Source: Glaciozyma antarctica PI12 | Lineage: Eukaryota > Basidiomycota > Microbotryomycetes > Kriegeriales > Camptobasidiaceae | Assembly: GCA_002917775.1 (NCBI GenBank) | Contig: KZ627157.1 | Location: 616,079-680,078 of the forward strand | Direction of reading: 5' to 3' | DNA length: 64,000 nucleotides | Program-made: the position numbers and the translations under genes | Shown here: in pieces, positions 34,881 to 49,200 of the stretch | How the letters are laid out: the number at the start of each line of letters is the position of its first letter | Position numbering within the stretch: position 1 is the first letter of the stretch | The notes under the pieces: model-generated | What the model was told of the DNA's origin: nothing | What the model saw: the letters and a program-made list of their open reading frames with translations, nothing else | The model's database searches: none

Positions 34881-36229
34881 CTAATCAATTGCGTGGAACG
34901 AGACGTCGCGACCGACTACGACGGCGAGGACGTTTCCCGTCGGATGCCACGCGAGATCCTGCGCCTGCAGAGGCGGTTGTGCGATGGGCAAGGACTGAGG
35001 GGCTGTGCGCAACAGCGTCAGCCATGATAGGTGGAGGAGGATGGGAGGGACTCGCCTTGAGGGAACGCCGTCGAGACGATCTTGACCGCTGGCGACGCCT
35101 TGGGATCCGACGACAGGACTGCAAACTGACGAGCGTTCGCAGGATTCCATCTGGCAGCTCATCTATCAGCATCCTCGCTTGGTAGCCACATTCAGAAGAA
35201 ACGCACGCACCGAAACACCTCGCGTCCTCGAGACTTCTCTCCAAACGCCTCACCGTACCTCAACGCTCTCCCGCCATTAATCTGGCGCAGGTCAAACACC
35301 GCCCAACGACCATTTATAGCTGCTCCAACCCTGCTCCACGCCATCAGCGCCTTCCAGCGACGAAGCGACGAAGCGAGAACGAACTCACACATTCCGATCG
35401 CTCGGATTCCACTCTCCACTCGTCGCTCCCCAGTTCCGTCCCGCCATTGACCTCGGCTCTCCCAGCGTCATTAGCACCGAACTACTCTTGCTCCAATCGA
35501 TGATCCGAGAGGTCCCTTTTGCGTCGGTCTTGAGTAGGTGCGATGAGCATATCGGGATTGAACGACACTGATCGCAGAGGGTAGGGATGCGGGATCTGCG
35601 TCCACCATCAGGTCCTCTCCACTCACTCGACGACGAGATGAACGCACCACAGCTACGAGGGTCCCCCCAGCCGCGGTATCCCAGAGCAAGCACTGCCCGT
35701 CGTCCGCCACGCTCGCCAACAGCTGTTCCATCCCCTCCGTCCTGCAGAACTTAACCTTCCACACCCTGCCACCGTGTACCACTCCGAGAGCCCTAATCCT
35801 CGTCCCTCCTTCCTCAGTCCACGAAAGCAGGTGCACTGTCGACGAGCTCGTAGCTACTGCGATTCTGCGAGGGGATTAGCTCGGAGGCGCAGGAGAGGGG
35901 TATACGAACGAAATGTGGGTGGAGTTGCTGCGAGGGGACCAGTCGAGAGCGGTTGTGGGACAGGCGAGGTGCCAGCTCGTGAGAGGCTCGAGGTCCCACC
36001 TCGGTGCCTCGGTGGGGACGATACGGAGGACTTGAATGGATGTGGCACCTCCTAGAGTGGTGCGAGTGGGTTAGCGATGTGGGAGGGCGCAGGGGGGCGT
36101 ACCGATGGCGAGGAGGGACGGGAGGGACGGGGAGAAGGAGATGCGGTGGAGCTGCTCCGAGGCGTGGTAGGCACCGAGCTGGGCTGGCCGGGGTGGTAGA
36201 TGAGAGATGAAGCCGTAGCTTGAGCTCAT
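34881..36229 (-). CDS. NUP37: Nup37-like WD40 nucleoporin
   Basis: WD40-type protein of about 370 residues, start ATG at 36229 (MSSSYGFISHLPPRPAQLG). Segments in order are LHRISFSPSLPSLLAIGT, a WSPRSNSTHIS blade end, VHGGRVWKVKFCRTEG, LLASVADDGQCLLWDT, DAKGTSRIIDW, WNPSDRNVVGAAINGRWAVF, and the final LAWHPTGNVLAVVVGRDV. The pattern ASV-x-DD-x2-C-x2-W, the weak IDW blade, the GA-x-W-x2-FDLR blade and the closing Ser/Ala-WHP blade match the layout of Nup37, a component of the Y-shaped Nup107-Nup160 nuclear pore complex. Other WD40 families (Seh1, Pex7) fit less well. About six exons, all in frame. The WD40 fold is firm; the Nup37 identity is a good inference. Confidence 0.68.
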
Positions 36230-36548
36230 TTTGACTCGGAGAGAAGGGGGAGCGAGTTGAGAGCAAGGGAAGGAGGCGGCGCGATGGAGCTCGTGTTTAT
36301 TTACTTCTCCCTCATCAATTCCTTCTTCCTTCAAACGATACTCTTTGCCTGCCTCACTCGAGCTTTACAACGTCGTATTATTCTCCGTTGAACTCTCTCC
36401 CCAGCCAGTTCCTTCTCCCCCGCACTGACCCCTCCTTCCACAGCAATGCCGACCCGGGCCCTCCTCTCTTCCGCGACCACCAACTCAGTCACTCCTTCGA
36501 AACGCTCTGACAGCACACACGCTAACGCAGCACACCCCACCCTCGGCC

Positions 36549-37228
36549 ATGAAGTTGCTTCTGCTTCGTTACCGCCTCCCTCGTTAGCGGGCCCGTCGTA
36601 GCCGCTTCTCCAACCACCATCTCCTCGCTCCCGAAGCTCACCACCACCTCCAAAATTCCCTCCACGAAGCTCTTCTCCACCTCCAGGACGGCCTCTCGCT
36701 CTTCTTCCAAGACGACCTCGAAGCCCGCGACAAAGACGACCTCGAAGCCCCGTGCGAAAACGACCTCGAAGCCCGCTGCGAAGACGACGAGCGTCGTCTC
36801 GATGACCTTCACCAAAGCCGTTACCAAGACCCGGGACGTCTCTCTCTCTGAGAAAAGCAAAGCTGCTGCTGCTGCGAAAGCGTCGAAAGCTGCTGTTGTA
36901 GCGAAGGCGAAGGCAGCGGCGCTTGCGAAGGCGCGTGCGAAGGAGAAGAACGTGGATGCGCTTGCGAAGGGGAGAAAGTCGACGATGGAGAAGGCCTTTG
37001 TACTCGCGAAGGAAAAGAAGGTGACAGCGCTCGCGAGGAGGGAGAAGGCTGCGGCGCTGGGGCAAAGAAGCTCGCTGCGAAGCGGAAGACGCACTAGGGA
37101 AGCTCGCTCTCGCCGCGAAGGAAAAAGTGCGCACGGTAGTGCTGAGGGAGAAGGAGGCGAGGCATACGTCGTTGACGAAGTTGGCGAGGGGGAGAAAGGG
37201 GAGGAAGGGCAAGTTGAGGATTGCTTGA
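36549..37228 (+). pseudogene. Decayed gene for a secreted-like Lys/Ala/Thr-rich protein
   Basis: ATG 36549 begins MKLLL. One frame over comes FVTASLVSGPVVAASPTT, together the shape of a signal peptide and its cleavage site. This frame continues through a Thr/Ser/Lys-rich part with the TTSKP repeat and then a Lys/Ala-rich part (AAAAKASKAAVVAKAKAAAL, ALAKARAKEKNVDALAKGRK) to about 37060. A third frame then carries the same composition (KLALAAKEKVRTVVLREKEA, SLTKLARGRKGRKGKLRIA) to a TGA at 37226-37228. Two frame offsets of one or two bases separate the three pieces, with no plausible introns, so the gene is either decayed or carries sequencing indels. No family recognised; the composition resembles basic, histone-H1-like or cell-wall-linked proteins. 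It lies between NUP37 and the metallothionein gene. Confidence 0.5.
36709..36780 (+). repeat. 24-bp coding tandem repeat (three units, TTSKP)
   Basis: Three head-to-tail 24-base units (36709-36732, 36733-36756, 36757-36780) beginning AAGACGACCTCGAAGCCC, with a fourth partial unit after. They encode repeats of the form KTTSKPxx. Confidence 0.9.
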
Positions 37229-37577
37229 GGGATTGGGCGCGAGCTTGATTAACGACATTGGAGTTTACTCGGCAGACGTTTATGATTTTTTTTTTTGAGA
37301 GACGCGATCCGGGTTAGTTTCGGGTGGAGGAGGGAGCAAATGCGATTGCAGAGAGAAACAGCATATCTCCCGGACTCCGGAACGCGAGAGCAAGTTCGCA
37401 ACCAGCCTTTCGTTACAGCGAGCTCAAGGTCCAAGCTCGTATGAGTCTGAATGCGAATAATGAACGGGGGTACTGATAGAAGTGGAAGGGGGGACGGGGA
37501 GGAGTCGGGGGGTCTGCGCTCAGCGGGGGTCAGCGCGTCGACGACGGTGAGAACAGCCACAGCCACACTCACCTGCT
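37229..37577. other. Intergenic, downstream of both the decayed gene and the metallothionein
   Basis: 349 bases without a supported gene. A run of ten T lies near 37287-37296. Because the metallothionein gene reads leftward, this is probably its 3' UTR and terminator region. Nothing else seen. Confidence 0.4.
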
Positions 37578-37735
37578 CTACTTCTTATCACCTCCAGACG
37601 TAGTGCTCGAATTACCGCCGCAGGAACATCCACCGGACGAGATGCAGGTGCAGTTTGCTGCGCGGTCGTGGAGGATCAGTGGGTGGCGCTGGGAGGAAGG
37701 TTTGGGGGGATCGTACCTCCACAGTTGCAGGCCAT
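37578..37735 (-). CDS. Metallothionein-like peptide (32 residues, two exons)
   Basis: Start ATG at 37735. Exon 1 (37717-37735) is 19 nt, the intron is 37658-37716 (59 nt, GTACGA donor, GCGCAG acceptor), and exon 2 is 37578-37657 ending in TAG. The spliced product begins MACNCGANCTCISSGGCSCG and ends GGNSSTTSGGDKK: six cysteines in three Cys-x-Cys pairs within the first 20 residues, no aromatic residues, many Gly/Ser/Thr. This is the signature of small copper- or zinc-binding fungal metallothioneins, which buffer metal in the cytosol. The unspliced frame does not give the peptide. The upstream region has an AT-rich patch (CTTTTTATTTGCTG on the minus strand near 37910), but no known metal-response element was confirmed. 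Length and Cys pattern differ from the Neurospora type, so it may be a separate subfamily. Confidence 0.72.
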
Positions 37736-38158
37736 TGTTGTAGATCTGGAGAGTAGTATTGGTGGTGTTGTTGGAGAAGGTGAATTGTAGGAGTGTGCGA
37801 GAGGAGAAGAGAGGAGGGGGAAAGGAGCAAGGCAGTTCTTTCGACACCGCCTCACGCTAGTCACGAAGAGTGGGTCAAGGCCTTTCGCAAGGGTTCAGCA
37901 AATAAAAAGAAGGCGAGTAGGAAGGCACTGGACTGCGCCGGACGCAGTGCTAGACATTGCGACCCTTGAGAAGGGCTTGAGGAGGAAGCGCCGGACTCCG
38001 AATCAAAAACTGGAGGACGCCTTTTTGTCGAGGTACAGCTCCGCCGAGATTGTGAGATCTGTTCGAAGAGGAAGCAACAGCCTGAGCCTCAGAGCTTGCG
38101 AGAGAGAGAGGAGCTCTGGAGCTTTGATCACTTTCTTCCTCTCTTCCCAAACCCTCAG
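37736..38158. other. Intergenic between metallothionein promoter and TatD-like fragment
   Basis: 423 bases with no supported gene. The left part should be the metallothionein promoter (it reads leftward). The right part ends in a pyrimidine tract and CCCTCAG that looks like a splice acceptor for the following fragment, although no matching upstream exons are seen. The 11-mer GGACTCCGAAT at 37991-38001 recurs at 38158-38168. Confidence 0.4.
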
Positions 38159-38400
38159 GACTCCGAATAGTCCTCGAAACCGATGCGCCCTACATGGTTC
38201 CCTCTGTTCTTCCTAACGCCAGTGCGTTGGGGATGAAGAGTGGACAGAAGATGCCGTTCTCACATTCGGGAATGATCCCTTGGACGGCGGGGTTCGTGGC
38301 TGGGCTGCTGAATGAGGGGAGGGAGGGAGGGGAGATGTGGACGACAGAGGATGTGTTGAAGGTTGCGAGGGAGAATGCGAGGTTGTCGTATGGGGTATAG
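38159..38400 (+). pseudogene. TatD-family hydrolase, 3' exon remnant
   Basis: An open stretch starting right after an acceptor-like CCCTCAG reads LRIVLETDAPYMVPSVLP, then KMPFSHSGMIPWTAGFVAGL and the end VLKVARENARLSYGV with TAG at 38398-38400. The ETDAP motif followed by the closing VARENAxxxYGV helix is characteristic of the C-terminus of TatD-type metal-dependent hydrolases/DNases. A full protein needs about 300 more residues upstream (metal-binding HxH, Glu, His), and the 420 bases before it contain nothing like them before the metallothionein gene is reached. It is therefore a truncated gene copy. It is not a stand-alone gene unless an upstream exon lies beyond 37.5 kb, which the opposing gene makes unlikely. 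Confidence 0.6.
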
Positions 38401-38483
38401 AGGAATTGATGGAGCGGACAGAGACTGAGAAAGCTCGCGTTCCAAACACTCGTTCTACGACCCCCAGCTCCTCCTTCGCCAAA

Positions 38484-40362
38484 TCAGTCCGTCGCGGAGC
38501 CGAAGATTGCGTCTGAGAGAAAGAGTCAGTGAACGTTCGGCAGCGAGTCGAGGGCGACGTACATCTCCGTGCGATCGAAGGTCCCACCTCGTCGTCTACG
38601 AAGGAAAAATCAGCACTCAGCTTTCAAGCGAGAAACGTATAAGCGCACAATCAGCCTTGGTGCTGCGAAAGAAGTGATCAGCTTTGCACACACGCAGACT
38701 CCAGCGAACAAACTCACTGGCAGTACCCCGCGAACTCGGGCGTCGAAGCCAACAGCGATCCTCCGAACCAAACCGCGTACCGCTGCCTCTTGTGCGAAAC
38801 GACGTTAACGTTGACTCCAGTAGACTGCGAAGGAGAAATATGAGTATGCGGGCAGTCAAAAGTCGGAGAGACGACGTACGCGCATGAGTCCACCGCTGAG
38901 AGCCTCGCTCGTCTGAATGCGCGTATCGACGATATGCTTGAGATCGCGCTGCAGACGTCGACCGAAGTGGTCAAACATGGTCGAGCCTCCCGAAAGAACG
39001 ATGTTCTGCATTTCTCGTGCGTCAGCGAACTCCTGCGCAGACGGGAGGACGGGGAACGAACGTTGTAGAGCCCACGACGGACGTCGATAGGACTGGTTTG
39101 AATCACGTTGTCGACGACTTCGGGGAGGGGAGTGAGGAAGTCGGATGAGGCGATCTCGGGGTTGAAAAAGATCTCGGGCGCGAGGAAGCGCTCGTATCCC
39201 ACGTCGACCTTGTACTTCTGCTCGGCGAGATCTCAGTACTGCCCTCCCCTGACCTCGGAAACTCAACGCACCTTGCCCGTAACTGAGTGCTCGCCCTCGT
39301 ACACACCAAAGAACTTCTCGGGCTCCTTGTCGTACTTGCCAAACTCCTTGACCATGTCTCCGCAGACATAACTGTAGTCCTCCTTGATCTTCTCCGCAAC
39401 GCGAAGCGAGTCCTCGGGAGGGATCGAGTTCTCTCCTCGGTCTCGGAGGAGCTGCTGAACGAAGGAGGAGATGTCGCGACCGGCGATGGGGATATGGCGG
39501 ATCGAGGAGCCGATAACGTAGCCCTCAGCCTGCGAGTCGCCGCTTCATCAGCCTCCGCCCCTCCAAGCGGCAGACAAAAGAACGCACGACAGGGATAACG
39601 TGGGTAACTCCGTCTCCAGAGTCGATAACGGTCCCCGTGAGAGTGCGGTCGGTGACCTTGGCGCTGCTCCAGCTTGCGGCGAGAGCGAGGACGGCCTGGA
39701 CGGCAATGTAGAGACCTTGCACGTTGAACGACTCGAACATGATCTCGGCGGTGGCTTCTCGGTTCTCGGGAGGGTTGAGAGGGGGCTCCGTCTGCGTTCG
39801 TGGCCGGTGTCAGCTCCTCCCCTCCTCAATGTACGCACGACGCCGAGGCGAACGTACGAGCAGGAAGTAGTGATCCTCTGGCTCCGCCCTTAGGTACTTG
39901 AAGATGCTCTGCTCCCAGTACCTCTCCATCTGGTCCCAGTCCTCAATCTGTCCATGCTTGATCGGGTAGTTGACGGCGTACGTCTTGTTGTTGGCGATCG
40001 CCTCGTCGCCGATGAAGAAGTCGAGGTCCTCAATTCCTCGCTTGGAAGCAAGGTGGCTGGAGCCTAGGCCAGAGGGCTTGGAGGGGACGGAAGGGGCGCG
40101 AGAGGTGGAGGAGCCGGCGGGGGCGGAGCGCGTGGCGATGCAGGTTGGGAAGACGAAGGACGGGTCCGAATTGCCGGCGAATCTGCAGAGTGGTAAGAGC
40201 GTGAGTGTGAGTGCCAGGACGAAGAGACAGCGGGCAACGACTTACCCCAGTTTGGAGTAGCCAGTTCCGTTGTCCATCACGATGGCTGGTGGGGGGAGAG
40301 GTCAGCTCCGCTCCTTCTCCCAGCTAGGCAGAGCACGTACGGGCCAAACGAGTTCCCGACAT
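38484..40362 (-). CDS. ARP3: Actin-related protein 3 (Arp2/3 complex)
   Basis: Arp3, one of the two actin-related subunits of the Arp2/3 complex that nucleates branched actin at endocytic patches. Start ATG at 40362 (MSGTRLAP), intron, then [20 protein letters not shown]. Family text in order includes [136 protein letters not shown] and the end [15 protein letters not shown]. The ATP-binding DNGTGY and DSGDGVTH loops are intact. About nine exons, including a 14-nt exon at 38649-38662. Near-full identity of blocks with Arp3 (and not actin or Arp2) makes this call secure. It diverges from SHR3. Confidence 0.97.
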
Positions 40363-43286: not shown

Positions 43287-46200
43287 ATGGCGACGGCGAG
43301 CACCTCCGCGTTGGTCAAGAAGGGAGCAGCGACGAAGAGCCCTCGAATGTGCGTGCTTCCTTATTGACGAGCGAGCAAGCAGCTTACTGGCCGCTCTGTA
43401 GGCTCTGGGCCACGGCGTTAAGAGCTACCACGAGCTCTCCTCCACCACCGGCGTCCTCTCCCCTCACGTCCCCTCACGTTTCCTCACCTCCCACGTCGCC
43501 CAGCTCCAATCCCTCCACGATCCTTTTTCGAGAACCAAGAAATCTTCTGCAGCAATTCAATCTGGCAAGGTCGAGCTAGGCGGAGCCACGGTCGAGCTCA
43601 GCAAGGAGGAGCAAAATGTTGTTCGAGACGTCGCGGACCGATTCGAGTTGGACGAGCTGGAGGCGCTGCTCGCAATCAGGGGACTCAAAAAGGGCAAGGT
43701 GGAGAAGCTGGAGGAGGAGGACTGGGCCGTTGTGACGGCGCACGTCTTTGAGGAGCGGATGGGAGCCATCGGATGCGCCACGCTGTTGTTTCGCTGCAGT
43801 GAGTTCGAAGGAGGGAGTACGAGGTGACTGCAAGCTAATCTGGCGTTCATTCTGCAGGTGAGGATCCCTCCCACCCCTGCCACGAGCTCGCGGCGACCCT
43901 CCTCCCCTCCATCACGACCTCTACCTTCGCTTCGACTCTCCTTCGAGCATTCGCGCACCGGACGACCCTGGCGCTGCCCGAGGCAGTGAGCGCATCATCT
44001 CAGCACTCGGTCTTCTGGGCCAAGCAGCTTGTTCGCGAGCAGAAGGCCCTTCTCGAGGTCCTCTTCCTCTTCTGTAAGTGCTCTCTCGCCTCGCGCGAGC
44101 GTGGCTGACGAACCGCACAACAGACTACTCCTCGCAACCACCTTCCGGACCGGAACTCGTCGCTCTCATCGATACCCTCCGCACGACGCAGTGGGGCCAG
44201 CGGCAGGAGATCTTTGGCTTCTTCGACGTCGAGACGACGGGACTCGTCAAAGAGATTGGCGACCTCCTCGTCATTATCGCCGTCGAGGGGCTCAACCTCG
44301 AAGTCGCCATGGGAGAGGACTACCCCATTCCTTCGCCCTCCGAACCTCTCCTCGAAGCCGACAATGTCTACCACCCGACGCAGCTCCAAGCGATCAACGA
44401 CGCGATTGAGGCCCTCGTCAAGTTCGACAGCGTGCGAGCTGCGCCACTTCTCCTCGGCTGGGCCTTCATCCTCTCCCGAGTGACAAACTCGCTCGTTGAA
44501 CGTGGAGTCCCCGAAGCCTACCACGCTTTCGCCAACAAGTCTCTCCGAGTCGACTCCGGAACCTCCTCCTCTTCCCAGCCCCTCTTCCAACTCTACGCCG
44601 CCCACGCCCTCCTCCCCTCCTCCAGTCTTTTCGAATCACTCCTCGCCGTCCTCCACTCCCCTCTCTTCGGCACCTCCGACCTCGACTCCCCCATCACAAC
44701 TCTCAACGAACCCAACGCAGTCGGCTACATTTCCGTCCTCCGCGCCCTGGTTACCTGCCTTCCCCTCCTCGTCCGCCTCTCCTTCCTCACCTCCGAGCAA
44801 TACGCCTCCCTCGTCGACGTCTTCGCAGCGCTGTACGGTCACCCTGGCGCCGCGCAGCTCTGCGCCCAGTTCTGGGAGGAACGAGGCCTGGAGGCTGGAT
44901 TCGCTAGCGCCGTCGAGAGCGTCGGAGAGGCGGAGATTGTCGAGCTGGCGCGCTCGAGGTTCCCGATCCAGTTCGGCAGCATGGTCAAGATCGTTCGGGC
45001 ACTTTGCCAGGGCGCGACGGGCCTCCTGGCTGCCGAGGGAGAGGGATCGTCGGATGACGAGGAGATCGCGAGTAGGTGCGCGGAATGCGCGTTCGCGTAC
45101 GTCGGGACGCTCGACTCCCTTACGCACGTCGTCGGGCCTACCTCGGCCGTCACGCCACTGCCGTACGAGGTCGTCGGGGATCCCGACCCAGCCAACATCT
45201 CATTCCGCTCGACGAGGCCTATCCCGGTCTCGAAGAGCCTGACGATCCCCGTTGGGACGCACGGAAGGCTCGTGAGCCAGCAAGGACGGAAGCCGGTCGT
45301 CATCTCGTGGGAGCTGGAATGGTCGGGCTGGAGGTTATTCGGAGACGTCCTCGAGGACTTTGCGAACGTGCGGAAGGGAGGAGCGGACGTTTTCGGCGCA
45401 GGAACGGAGATGGGCCTACCTATCGAGTGGGAGGACGAACGCGAGCGCGCAGAGGACGTCACCGCCGTACTCGACATCTTCCGCATCACCCTCACGAACG
45501 ATTCGTCGCTTGGAACCCGTCTCGTCGAGCACATGGCGGAGGCGACGCCGACGGCCGACCGTACTCACTTCGTCGAGGTCCTCTTCCGCATCCTCGAGCT
45601 ATCGCTCTCCGCCCAGCGACAAGCTTCGACGAAGCTCGTCAGCTCCCTCCTCGGCCTCATCTCCGCCCTCCTCCCCTCCTACCCTGGCGTTATCTGGACG
45701 TTCCTCCGCGGGTCCACCCTCCTATTCCCCTCCGCCTCGCCCTCCTCCGCCTGGTCGCAGGACGCCTCTCGCACTTCGATCCTTCAAAACGAGAAGCTCG
45801 CAGGGACCTACCCCGTCACCCTCGCCCTCCTTTCCCTCGTCCGCGCCCTTGTCCTAGAGGACCAGATCTCGTCGTACGCCATCCCCGCCGCATTCGAGGA
45901 AATCAAGCAGGGCGTCCTCGTTAGGGCGCTCAGTTGGGTCCGCGACGAGATCTGGAGCGTCTCGGGGACGTGGAGGTTCGTCAACCTCGCCGAGAAGTAC
46001 GAGATGTCGAAGCGGATGGTGCAGCTGTACAAGCTTGTGCTGGAGGAGGGGGAGCTCGCGCCCAACGTCGACAAGGGACAGTTCGACCCCGTCGTCTCGG
46101 TCGTCGTCGACGCTCTCCTCATCAAGGCGACGGCCACTCAACTCTCGCCTCTCCTCTCCGCTATCGCTGCCGGCCCAGGACCCATCACCATCCTCCGCAA

Positions 46201-49200
46201 GGCCCTTCGTTTCGCCGACGCGCAAGCTTCGGAAGACCTCGTCGAATCGTCTCTCGCCCTCGTCCGCAAACTCCTTCGCCTCCGTCGCCGGATCGTCGGA
46301 TCGACCCCCTCGCTCCTCGAAAGGATCGCTCTCTCGCACAGCGCGCCGCAGGGCCTCGGATCGTCGACGCAGCAGAAGGTCGAAATGCTCGAATGCCTTT
46401 CCAAGTACATCGTCGCGCCCATCGACCCCAAGACGGCGACGCAGGCGGCGAAGGTCCTTACGCTCCTCTGCATTGGATCGGGCGAGTGGCAGCCTCGACC
46501 TCCGAGCCTCATCTCCCTCCTCGGTGGCTCAGAACGGACGGAGACGTTTGTTACGGCGATGCTCGGGGTTGCGTCGGACCCGATGTCGGCGGTGGGCTTG
46601 CAAGTCGCGATTTGGGATCTCGTCAGTCCTCTCTCCACCCTCCGGCGTCCCCTTTCTGACCCTTTAAGCTCGGCAGATGTCCTCGATCGTCGAAGCGCAG
46701 CCGAGTCTGGCGTTGCTCCTTGTTACGGGACGACACTACCCCTTCGACGCCAGCAGCGACGACAAAGGCAAGGCGAAAGCGGCGGACCAGTCTCAGGCCT
46801 TCGACGCAGCCGAGGAGTCCGCCAAAGCTCTCGCTAAGTCGCTCGCTCCTGCCCCCTTCCGACCTCTCCCTCGAACTGCTATTGGCGTCGGCCTGGAGAC
46901 GGTCGGAACGTGGGAGGAGGCGTGGGAGCATCGCCCTTCTCTCCTCGCCGCCGTCCTTCGATTCTTCGACTTTGCCTGGCAGCACCTCGTCGATTATGGA
47001 GCAGCTCTCGACGACTTCCGCACACGGCCAGCACCCTGGGACGCCATCGTCAAGATCGCTTTCGAAGGAGTCGGCGAGCAGCCCACAGACGAGGCAGAAG
47101 TCGCGACGTACTGTCACCGGACGATGGCGAAGGCTCACGCCGTTCGGATTTTAGCTCTCGATACGCAAGTTTCGATGAGTCGACCGGGATCGGAGACCCC
47201 GACGAGCGCGAAGGCCCTCCTCAAGTCGCTGGCGGACAAGAGCAAGCTCACGAACGCTCTGCTCGGCGCCATCTCGACCTCATGCGCGCCCGATCTTCAC
47301 CAAGGGATCTCCGAGTTGATCCAGGAGTCGTTCCCCGAGATCCCCATCGACTCGTTCCGCCTACCTCCCCAAACCCATCCTCTCGACGATGCTCGCGAGT
47401 TCGGCTCCGGGTACCTCTACTCGCTACCCCTCCTTCGCCGGAAGCTCGACGGCTTCATGTCGGAGTCAGACGCGATGATCGGGCACGAGAGTCTCGTCGA
47501 CGTGATCGTTCGGACGGGCGAGCTCAACCTCAACTTTTCGCTCCTCGAGGCGCAGATCTCCAACACGCGGTCGTGGCGCCAACTCCTCGAGATCGTCCTG
47601 CCGTTGCTCCGAAGAGATACGGCGGCTTCGGCGACGGTCCTCGGCGTAGCGTCGCTCGTCGCAGAGGCGGTTGCGAACGAGGATCGCGAGGGACAGATCA
47701 TGACGACCGTTCATGAGGAACGCCTTTCGATCCTCCTCACGATGGTCGAGATTCTTCAAGGCATGTCGTCGCCTCAGGTCAAGGACGACCTCGTTCTTCT
47801 CCTCCAGGACGTCAATCGGATCTTCACCAGCGAAACCCTCCCCCCTCTCGAATCCGTCGCGCGCCGCACCACTCCCCTCTTCCACCGAACCCTCTTCCGC
47901 ATCGCCTACTTTATCTTCCGCAAGCTTAACGTCTACAACGGTGTTGGGCGTGACCTCTTCAAGCCGGATCAGAAGGTCTCGCTCGCGGCGTCGACGGACG
48001 CGATCATGCGCGTTATGCTCAGCGGCACGCGAGACCTCTTCGTCCTCGCCCGCGCGAAAAAGGACGTCGAAATCGCGCAGGACCTCACTCTCGCCGTCGC
48101 CGTCCTATCCCAAATCGTCCACTCGCCCTTCGTCCCTCCTCCCCCCGTCTGGCTCGGCTACTGCCAGTCTGTCGACTTCTTCCGCCGCGCGTTCGACGTC
48201 TTCGTCTACATGGATCAACTCGACGGCCGACCGCTGTACGCCCAACTCGTCCTCGACCTCTGCCTCGCAATGGCTTCGTCGACGCCGCGCGCCGCAGAGC
48301 AGATGGCGCTCGAGGGCCTCATGACCGCCTTGACGAACAACGCTCTTACCGCCTCAGCGGAGGCGGGGTCGATCTCGGTCCTCTCGATGGAGGGCGAGCG
48401 CACGACGCAGCACGAGCTCTGGACGTCGATGCTCGCGCTCGTCGTCTCGCTCGTCTCGGCACTCGGGGATTCGACGCAGTTTGTCGAGCACGAGGTGACG
48501 GGATTCGTGCGGCTGTATGGAGCGCAGATTGCCGTCTCGATGGGGTGGAACGCGGATAGTCCGTTGACGTTCGCGGGGCTCGAGGAGACGCAGAACGCTG
48601 TTGCGCTCATGTATGGACTCGTTCATCGCGCCGGAGGACAATCGCCCGTCACGGCGGTGTTTGCGGAGCAGGCGCTCAACCTCCTCCAGCAAATCGTCTA
48701 CGCCATCCTCCACCCTAATCATCTTTCGACTCTCATCGAACCCGTTACGGCCGAGGAGCGAGCGTGGCTCGACAAGGACCATTCGGAGGCGGAGACGGAT
48801 TTGGCGAGGAGACCGGTGGTGGGGGCTGTGACGATGGCGCTCGTCAAGCTTGCGCGCGTTATCGTGGACAGTTTGCTGGCGTATACGCAGGCGTTCACGG
48901 TTCTCACGAAGGAGAGCAGCGAGTGGAGGAAGGATCGCGCGATCGTCATTCCTGTGCGTCTTTCGCTTTCTCGCTCTCTCTGCTCTCGCTGACTTCGTTC
49001 ATCGCAGACGGCTACCGTCACCTCGAACGAGCGCGCCTCAATCGGAACCCTCTTCGACCTCGCCTCCTTCTCCCTCGACATCCTCCGCCAACCCTCCACC
49101 CCCCTACCACCTTCCGTTCCCACCTCCCCTCTCCCGCCCTACTCCTCCTCAACCATGTACACGACCGTCCAACAAACACTCGAAGCGACCCTCCTCCTCG

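Follow-up and report, generated by a model that had tools for sequence, protein, structure and literature searches.

The window analysed here is a stretch of 64,000 nucleotides from Glaciozyma antarctica PI12 (contig KZ627157.1), and all positions given below are counted from its first letter. On its minus strand we model a small gene with three exons and two introns of 59 nt each. The coding part of exon 1 (37717-37735, 19 nt, ATGGCCTGCAACTGTGGAG) begins with the ATG at 37735 and supplies the residues MACNCG plus 1 nt of the next codon. Intron 1 (37658-37716, 59 nt) reads GTACGA...CTGAT...GCGCAG, with a donor that departs from consensus at +6, a CTGAT branch site 22 nt from its end, and a GCAG acceptor. 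The coding part of exon 2 (37578-37657, 80 nt including the TAG at 37578-37580) completes the split Ala codon and continues with NCTCISSGGCSCGGNSSTTSGGDKK. A predicted second intron (37514-37572, 59 nt, GTGAGT...CTGAC...GCAG, with CTGAC 20 nt from its end) begins 5 nt past the stop codon, in the 3' untranslated region (UTR), and implies a presumed third exon, also 3' UTR, at 37249-37513. Ahead of the start lies a presumed 5' leader (37736-37815), which is CT/CA-rich, contains 2 G in 80 nt, and ends in ...CTACAACA ahead of ATGGCC. All of these features are on the minus strand.

When joined, the exons read MACNCGANCTCISSGGCSCGGNSSTTSGGDKK, a peptide of 32 residues. Its Cys residues stand at positions 3, 5, 9, 11, 17, and 19, which gives the spacing CxC-x3-CxC-x5-CxC. 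With six Cys (19%) arranged in three CxC pairs, and neither an aromatic residue nor a His, this short peptide has the general properties of a metallothionein: low mass, a Cys-rich composition mostly in CxC form, and few or no aromatics. A preliminary description of this DNA had claimed a 59-nt intron joining a 19-nt first exon to a second exon, and three CxC pairs within the first 20 residues followed by a tail without aromatics. Both claims were borne out: the join is exact, the Cys fall between residues 3 and 19, and the count of aromatics is zero. The strand, which had not been named, is the minus strand.

It is easy to see how such a gene would be overlooked. Left unspliced, the frame of the ATG reaches a stop after 19 codons, and the frame of exon 2, although open for 92 codons, contains no in-frame ATG; the gene would therefore be missed by any caller that is blind to introns, as had been proposed. 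The start context is CTACAACAATGGCC, the nearest upstream ATG is at 37957, and no other ATG occurs within 200 nt upstream.

Some features of the surroundings are recorded here in their own right. On the plus strand, an open frame at 36553-37248 lacks an ATG close to its beginning and encodes KTTSKPA-like Lys/Thr/Ser/Pro repeats, behind which comes a stretch rich in Ala and Lys; read in another frame, this segment gives spurious Cys runs (CCCCESVESCCC). The unspliced open reading frame (ORF) that overlaps the presumed exon 3 had no Pfam match. On the plus strand, 38128-38400 encodes a C-terminal fragment that resembles TatD-type hydrolases; it matches positions 196-252 of PF01026 with an E of 0.0024, which falls short of the curated cut-off. 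None of the seven plus-strand ORFs just upstream of this fragment has a TatD match, and no intron of the relaxed class described below was found near it on that strand. Other TatD matches in the genome lie at G000:C17:90109-90701 and C12:710210-710923, and tblastn found no clear similarity between the fragment and these two loci. It is possibly a remnant, or else part of a gene whose upstream portion is unusual.

As a local standard for splice signals, we used eight introns assembled by hand from an actin-related gene next to the locus. This gene lies on the minus strand with its start near 40362, and we take it to be ARP3; Pfam Actin matches one of its exons with an E of 0.0008, under the curated cut-off. 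These reference introns are 54-66 nt long, carry CTGAC or CTGAT 19-22 nt from their end in five of the eight cases, and all end in a CAG acceptor. Their donors are GTACGT (three), GTGCGT (two), GTAAGT, GTTCGT, and GTGAGT. Intron 1 agrees with them in its length of 59 nt, in its acceptor, and in its CTGAT branch site 22 nt from the end. It is at the donor that the model is weakest. With branch site and acceptor held fixed, donors of the form GTN[AC]GT are enriched in the window (40 versus 7.5 expected), and those of the form GTN[AC]GA are not (6 versus 7.0 expected, with GTACGA itself at 2 versus 1.2). Because GTACGA has an off-consensus A at +6, intron 1 falls in a relaxed class only. That class numbers 113 in the window, compared with 32.4 expected from Markov sequences, so that about 29% of its members would be due to chance. 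The earlier judgement that both splice sites are good thus holds for the acceptor end, where acceptor and branch site match the local norm, but not for the donor. An alternative donor, GTGGAG, 6 nt upstream, keeps the frame at the cost of one Cys, and by inspection it appears worse.

Intron 2, by comparison, is consensus-perfect. The strict class to which it belongs counts 42 introns on the two strands of the window, where 20 first-order Markov sequences would lead one to expect 1.9, and most introns of this class are therefore probably real. From 36000 to 38700, neither strand has another strict-class intron of 45-90 nt. Intron 2 lies on the same strand as the peptide and played no part in the choice of the peptide. 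We consider that it very probably belongs to the gene, and its class and strand point to a spliced transcript at this locus whose 3' UTR contains an intron. The gene had been described as having two exons; the join across 37658-37716 stands, but this second intron had been overlooked. A stop codon so near the last junction is not expected to trigger messenger decay. The leader is also distinctive, as two or fewer G occur in 23 of the 127,840 80-nt segments of the window, some of these overlapping the leader itself. Neither the intron past the stop nor the G-poor leader was used in the preliminary description, and both add support for a gene.

A spliced minus-strand RNA could also be non-coding, or could code for something else, in which case the Cys-rich peptide would be a by-product of the choice of splice pair. 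The better support for intron 2 than for intron 1, together with the weak intron 1 donor, leans that way, as does an equivocal codon bias. Synonymous codon choice in the peptide is intermediate, with an LLR of -0.75 for coding against background, a value reached by 6.7% of background draws, with 2.1% of coding draws as low; the training set comprised 1,897 codons, taken from the actin-related gene and from two of the window's long open frames (within 44078-46837 and 46668-48992). We also considered exon 2 in other frames joined to exon 3. One of these frames is broken by stops, and the remaining one gives a 61-residue Pro/Arg-rich stretch without an ATG and with no Pfam match at E≤1. What such an account would have to treat as an accident is the presence of three CxC pairs. 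When only introns of the local type were allowed, 346 of 355 gene models from outside the window had no CxC, nine had one, and none had two or more, whereas inside the window 89 of 90 models had no CxC and the single model with three was the candidate. We therefore regard a different RNA product as unlikely.

The question of rarity can be put more broadly. We took a census of peptides of at most 60 residues that start with ATG, are unspliced or interrupted by one GT-AG intron of 40-120 nt, and contain at least three CxC, at least six Cys, and at least 15% Cys. In the 64-kb window this census returned one peptide, namely the candidate itself. It returned none in control loci from elsewhere in this genome (222,911 bases, or ~217 kb without overlaps), and 40 Markov sequences, each first-order and 64 kb long, likewise gave none. 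The control loci excluded L001 and L002, which repeat the window. Since the control DNA amounts to ~1% of the 20-Mb genome, rarity across the whole genome is an extrapolation. What the analysis shows directly is the sequence, its reading frames, its intron signals, and its rarity in the sampled DNA.

Searches for relatives were negative throughout. The peptide had no match among Pfam and NCBIfam families or among PDB sequences, in each case at E≤10; peptides so short rarely score in such searches. Among the best candidates of a protein search of the genome, run exon by exon in six frames, there was no second copy. The Neurospora peptide had no match in the genome, a result that is uninformative without a control, and Rfam gave nothing in the window at gathering scores.

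It is important to remember that the search behind the preliminary description was unconstrained and that short exons lend themselves to many different joins. A lucky splice, picked out of 64 kb with no gene behind it, is thus a fair objection, to which the lack of relatives in the genome, Pfam, NCBIfam, and PDB and the small share of the genome covered by the control DNA lend some weight. Chance is nevertheless a poor explanation, because no peptide comparably rich in Cys turned up in the rest of the window, the ~217 kb of control DNA, or the Markov sequences. The strict-class intron past the stop and the G-poor leader, neither of which entered into the choice, also speak against it, and we hold it to be very improbable.

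We also looked upstream for a copper-response element. The fission-yeast Cuf1-type element has the form D(T/A)DDHGCTGD, and one candidate, TATTTGCTGA, lies on the minus strand at 37895-37904, 169 nt upstream of the ATG. With one such CuRE-like element found and 0.5 expected, its presence is not beyond chance, and we do not count it as evidence.

A spliced metallothionein-like gene is, in our view, the best reading of the locus, and one that is partly supported by the evidence above. Stated in full, with a probability that we would put at about 0.78, this is a real three-exon gene on the minus strand, with two 59-nt introns, for a 32-residue cytosolic metallothionein peptide that most likely buffers Cu(I). 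As the best explanation of the sequence data, we infer that the gene is transcribed and translated, that its product stays in the cytosol and binds metal, and that it serves copper tolerance alongside phytochelatins. Together, the three CxC pairs would provide six thiolates to enclose a small cluster of soft metal ions, most likely Cu(I). Six Cys within 17 residues, separated mostly by small spacer residues, would suit the wrapping of a Cu(I)-thiolate cluster, and six thiolates suit a Cu4S6 cluster. The peptide might thereby buffer free copper, and perhaps Cd or Ag, cadmium being suggested by the parallel with mushrooms; the Gly/Ser/Thr/Lys tail would form a flexible polar end.

A real, small, Cys-rich peptide could have another main job, such as that of an antioxidant or in copper delivery. 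Other roles have been assigned to fungal metallothioneins; a review (PMC9036806) places Magnaporthe Mmt1 in the cell walls of infection structures and describes it as able to act as an antioxidant. Here, no signal peptide is apparent by eye, and three regular CxC pairs without aromatics would best fit a thiolate cluster, so that we see little likelihood of a different main function. The metallothionein reading remains the one that we prefer.

The genome contains other genes related to metal handling. Two copper-fist transcription-factor loci score over the curated cut-off, L003 (G000:C10:1127225) and L004 (G000:C11:748787), and in the translated stretch at L003 we saw, by eye, no Ace1-like cluster rich in Cys following the DNA-binding part. 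Phenylalanine ammonia-lyase (PAL) is well known from red yeasts, although the aromatic lyase family PF00221 (PAL/HAL) had no match in the whole genome; either that family escaped the search or the lineage assumed in the preliminary description is wrong. A phytochelatin synthase gene is present. According to the accessible sections of PMC4410428, this enzyme occurs within Basidiomycota in Pucciniomycotina and Wallemiomycetes, and not in Agaricomycotina or Ustilaginomycotina. Its presence here thus agrees with the subphylum given in the preliminary description. The order Sporidiobolales, also named there, is not confirmed: the 20-Mb assembly agrees with the 17-26 Mb given for that order in PMC12093110, but the PF00221 match is lacking. 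The same sections of PMC4410428 suggest that fungi that have lost phytochelatin synthase may control metals otherwise, and name metallothioneins as another class of chelators. A genome with both phytochelatin synthase and a metallothionein, if true, would bear on that idea of replacement.

In its widest form, the proposal would be that a six-Cys lineage extends across the red yeasts of Pucciniomycotina and has gone unnoticed since gene callers do not pick up exons as short as its own. Such a lineage would have its own spacing, an N-terminal Cys cluster, and an intron right past the stop, and would work beside phytochelatin synthase, both systems being kept though elsewhere they are thought to replace each other. 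We put this forward tentatively and would sooner wager against it than for it.

The preliminary description held that peptides of this type are poorly catalogued in Pucciniomycotina, and this fits a limited search of the literature, with subscription papers mostly outside it. Among the matches listed for red yeasts, metallothionein, and copper, the word metallothionein occurs only in PMC4410428, whose available text, on Sporobolomyces phytochelatin synthase, mentions metallothioneins in general terms only. The portions available of PMC11134681 and PMC6925287 describe no Rhodotorula metallothionein gene, the former recording in R. toruloides an orthologue of the copper regulator CUP2. Neither does the main text of the 2025 Sporidiobolales genome paper (PMC12093110) contain the word metallothionein, nor that of the 2025 metallothionein paper (PMC12508003) any word beginning with Puccini or Rhodotorula. 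The claim is qualified by the rust Uromyces fabae, in which a review, in the part accessible to us, lists metallothioneins among the genes induced in planta (PMC9465030). Those proteins would share with our candidate the placement in Pucciniomycotina.

A small metallothionein in a fungus would come as no surprise to specialists. Metallothionein genes are known to be mis-annotated owing to their short exons (PMC4755600), and for this reason a spliced example is worth annotating in a lineage that has been surveyed so little, where it also offers an inexpensive test.

Comparison with known families is best made by spacing, and the published patterns that follow are quoted from the accessible parts of PMC4755600 and PMC12508003. 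The Cu-thionein of Neurospora and Agaricus bisporus (Binz-Kagi family 8) is similarly very short and Gly/Ser-rich, with three CxC and no aromatics (Neurospora sequence, PMC4755600). Its spacing is CxC-x5-CxC-x3-CxC-x2-C (PMC4755600), that is, x5 then x3 where our peptide has x3 then x5, and the terminal x2-C is absent here. The peptide, with six Cys, accordingly departs from the family 8 pattern X2-[CXC]-X5-[CXC]-X3-[CXC]-X2-C-X3, which has seven.

Mushrooms offer a published parallel. AcMT2 of Agaricus crocodilinus has 32 residues, 7 Cys, and three exons with introns of ~50 bp; sporocarps have yielded it in a Cd complex, and a yeast screen for Cd tolerance recovered its cDNA (PMC12508003). 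The mushroom heptaCys motif, C-x4-CxC-x2,3-CxC-x4-CxC, is C-terminal (PMC12508003). Our candidate shares with AcMT2 and its agaricomycete relatives the length of 32 residues, the CxC pairs, and an internal x3 that lies within the published x2,3; with AcMT2 it would also share a structure, here predicted, of three exons with introns of ~50-60 bp. The two predicted 59-nt introns agree in number and size with the short-exon, ~50-bp-intron structure of AcMT1 and AcMT2. It differs in having six Cys instead of seven (the leading Cys is absent), a last spacing of x5 instead of x4, and an N-terminal Cys cluster with the polar tail behind it, and so lies outside the C-terminal heptaCys motif of agaricomycete AcMT.

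The Tremella unit, CxC-x3-CxC-x4-CxC-x2-C (CXCX3CSCPPGXCXCAXCP; PMC4755600), opens with the same CxC-x3-CxC and then has x4 and a seventh Cys, compared with x5 and six Cys here. Tremella TmMT and Cryptococcus CMT1/2 are long tandem arrays of seven-Cys units, whereas the present peptide is a single six-Cys unit. Since its spacing agrees exactly with none of the three, we do not file it in the Neurospora, mushroom, or Tremella families. The preliminary description was right that the spacing differs from the Neurospora/Agaricus form, but the difference amounts to a small variant only, because the peptide lies close to both the mushroom heptaCys motif and the Tremella unit, one spacing residue and one lost Cys away from each. 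The candidate has the look of an ordinary fungal metallothionein, albeit one that is easily passed over, and not of a new kind of system.
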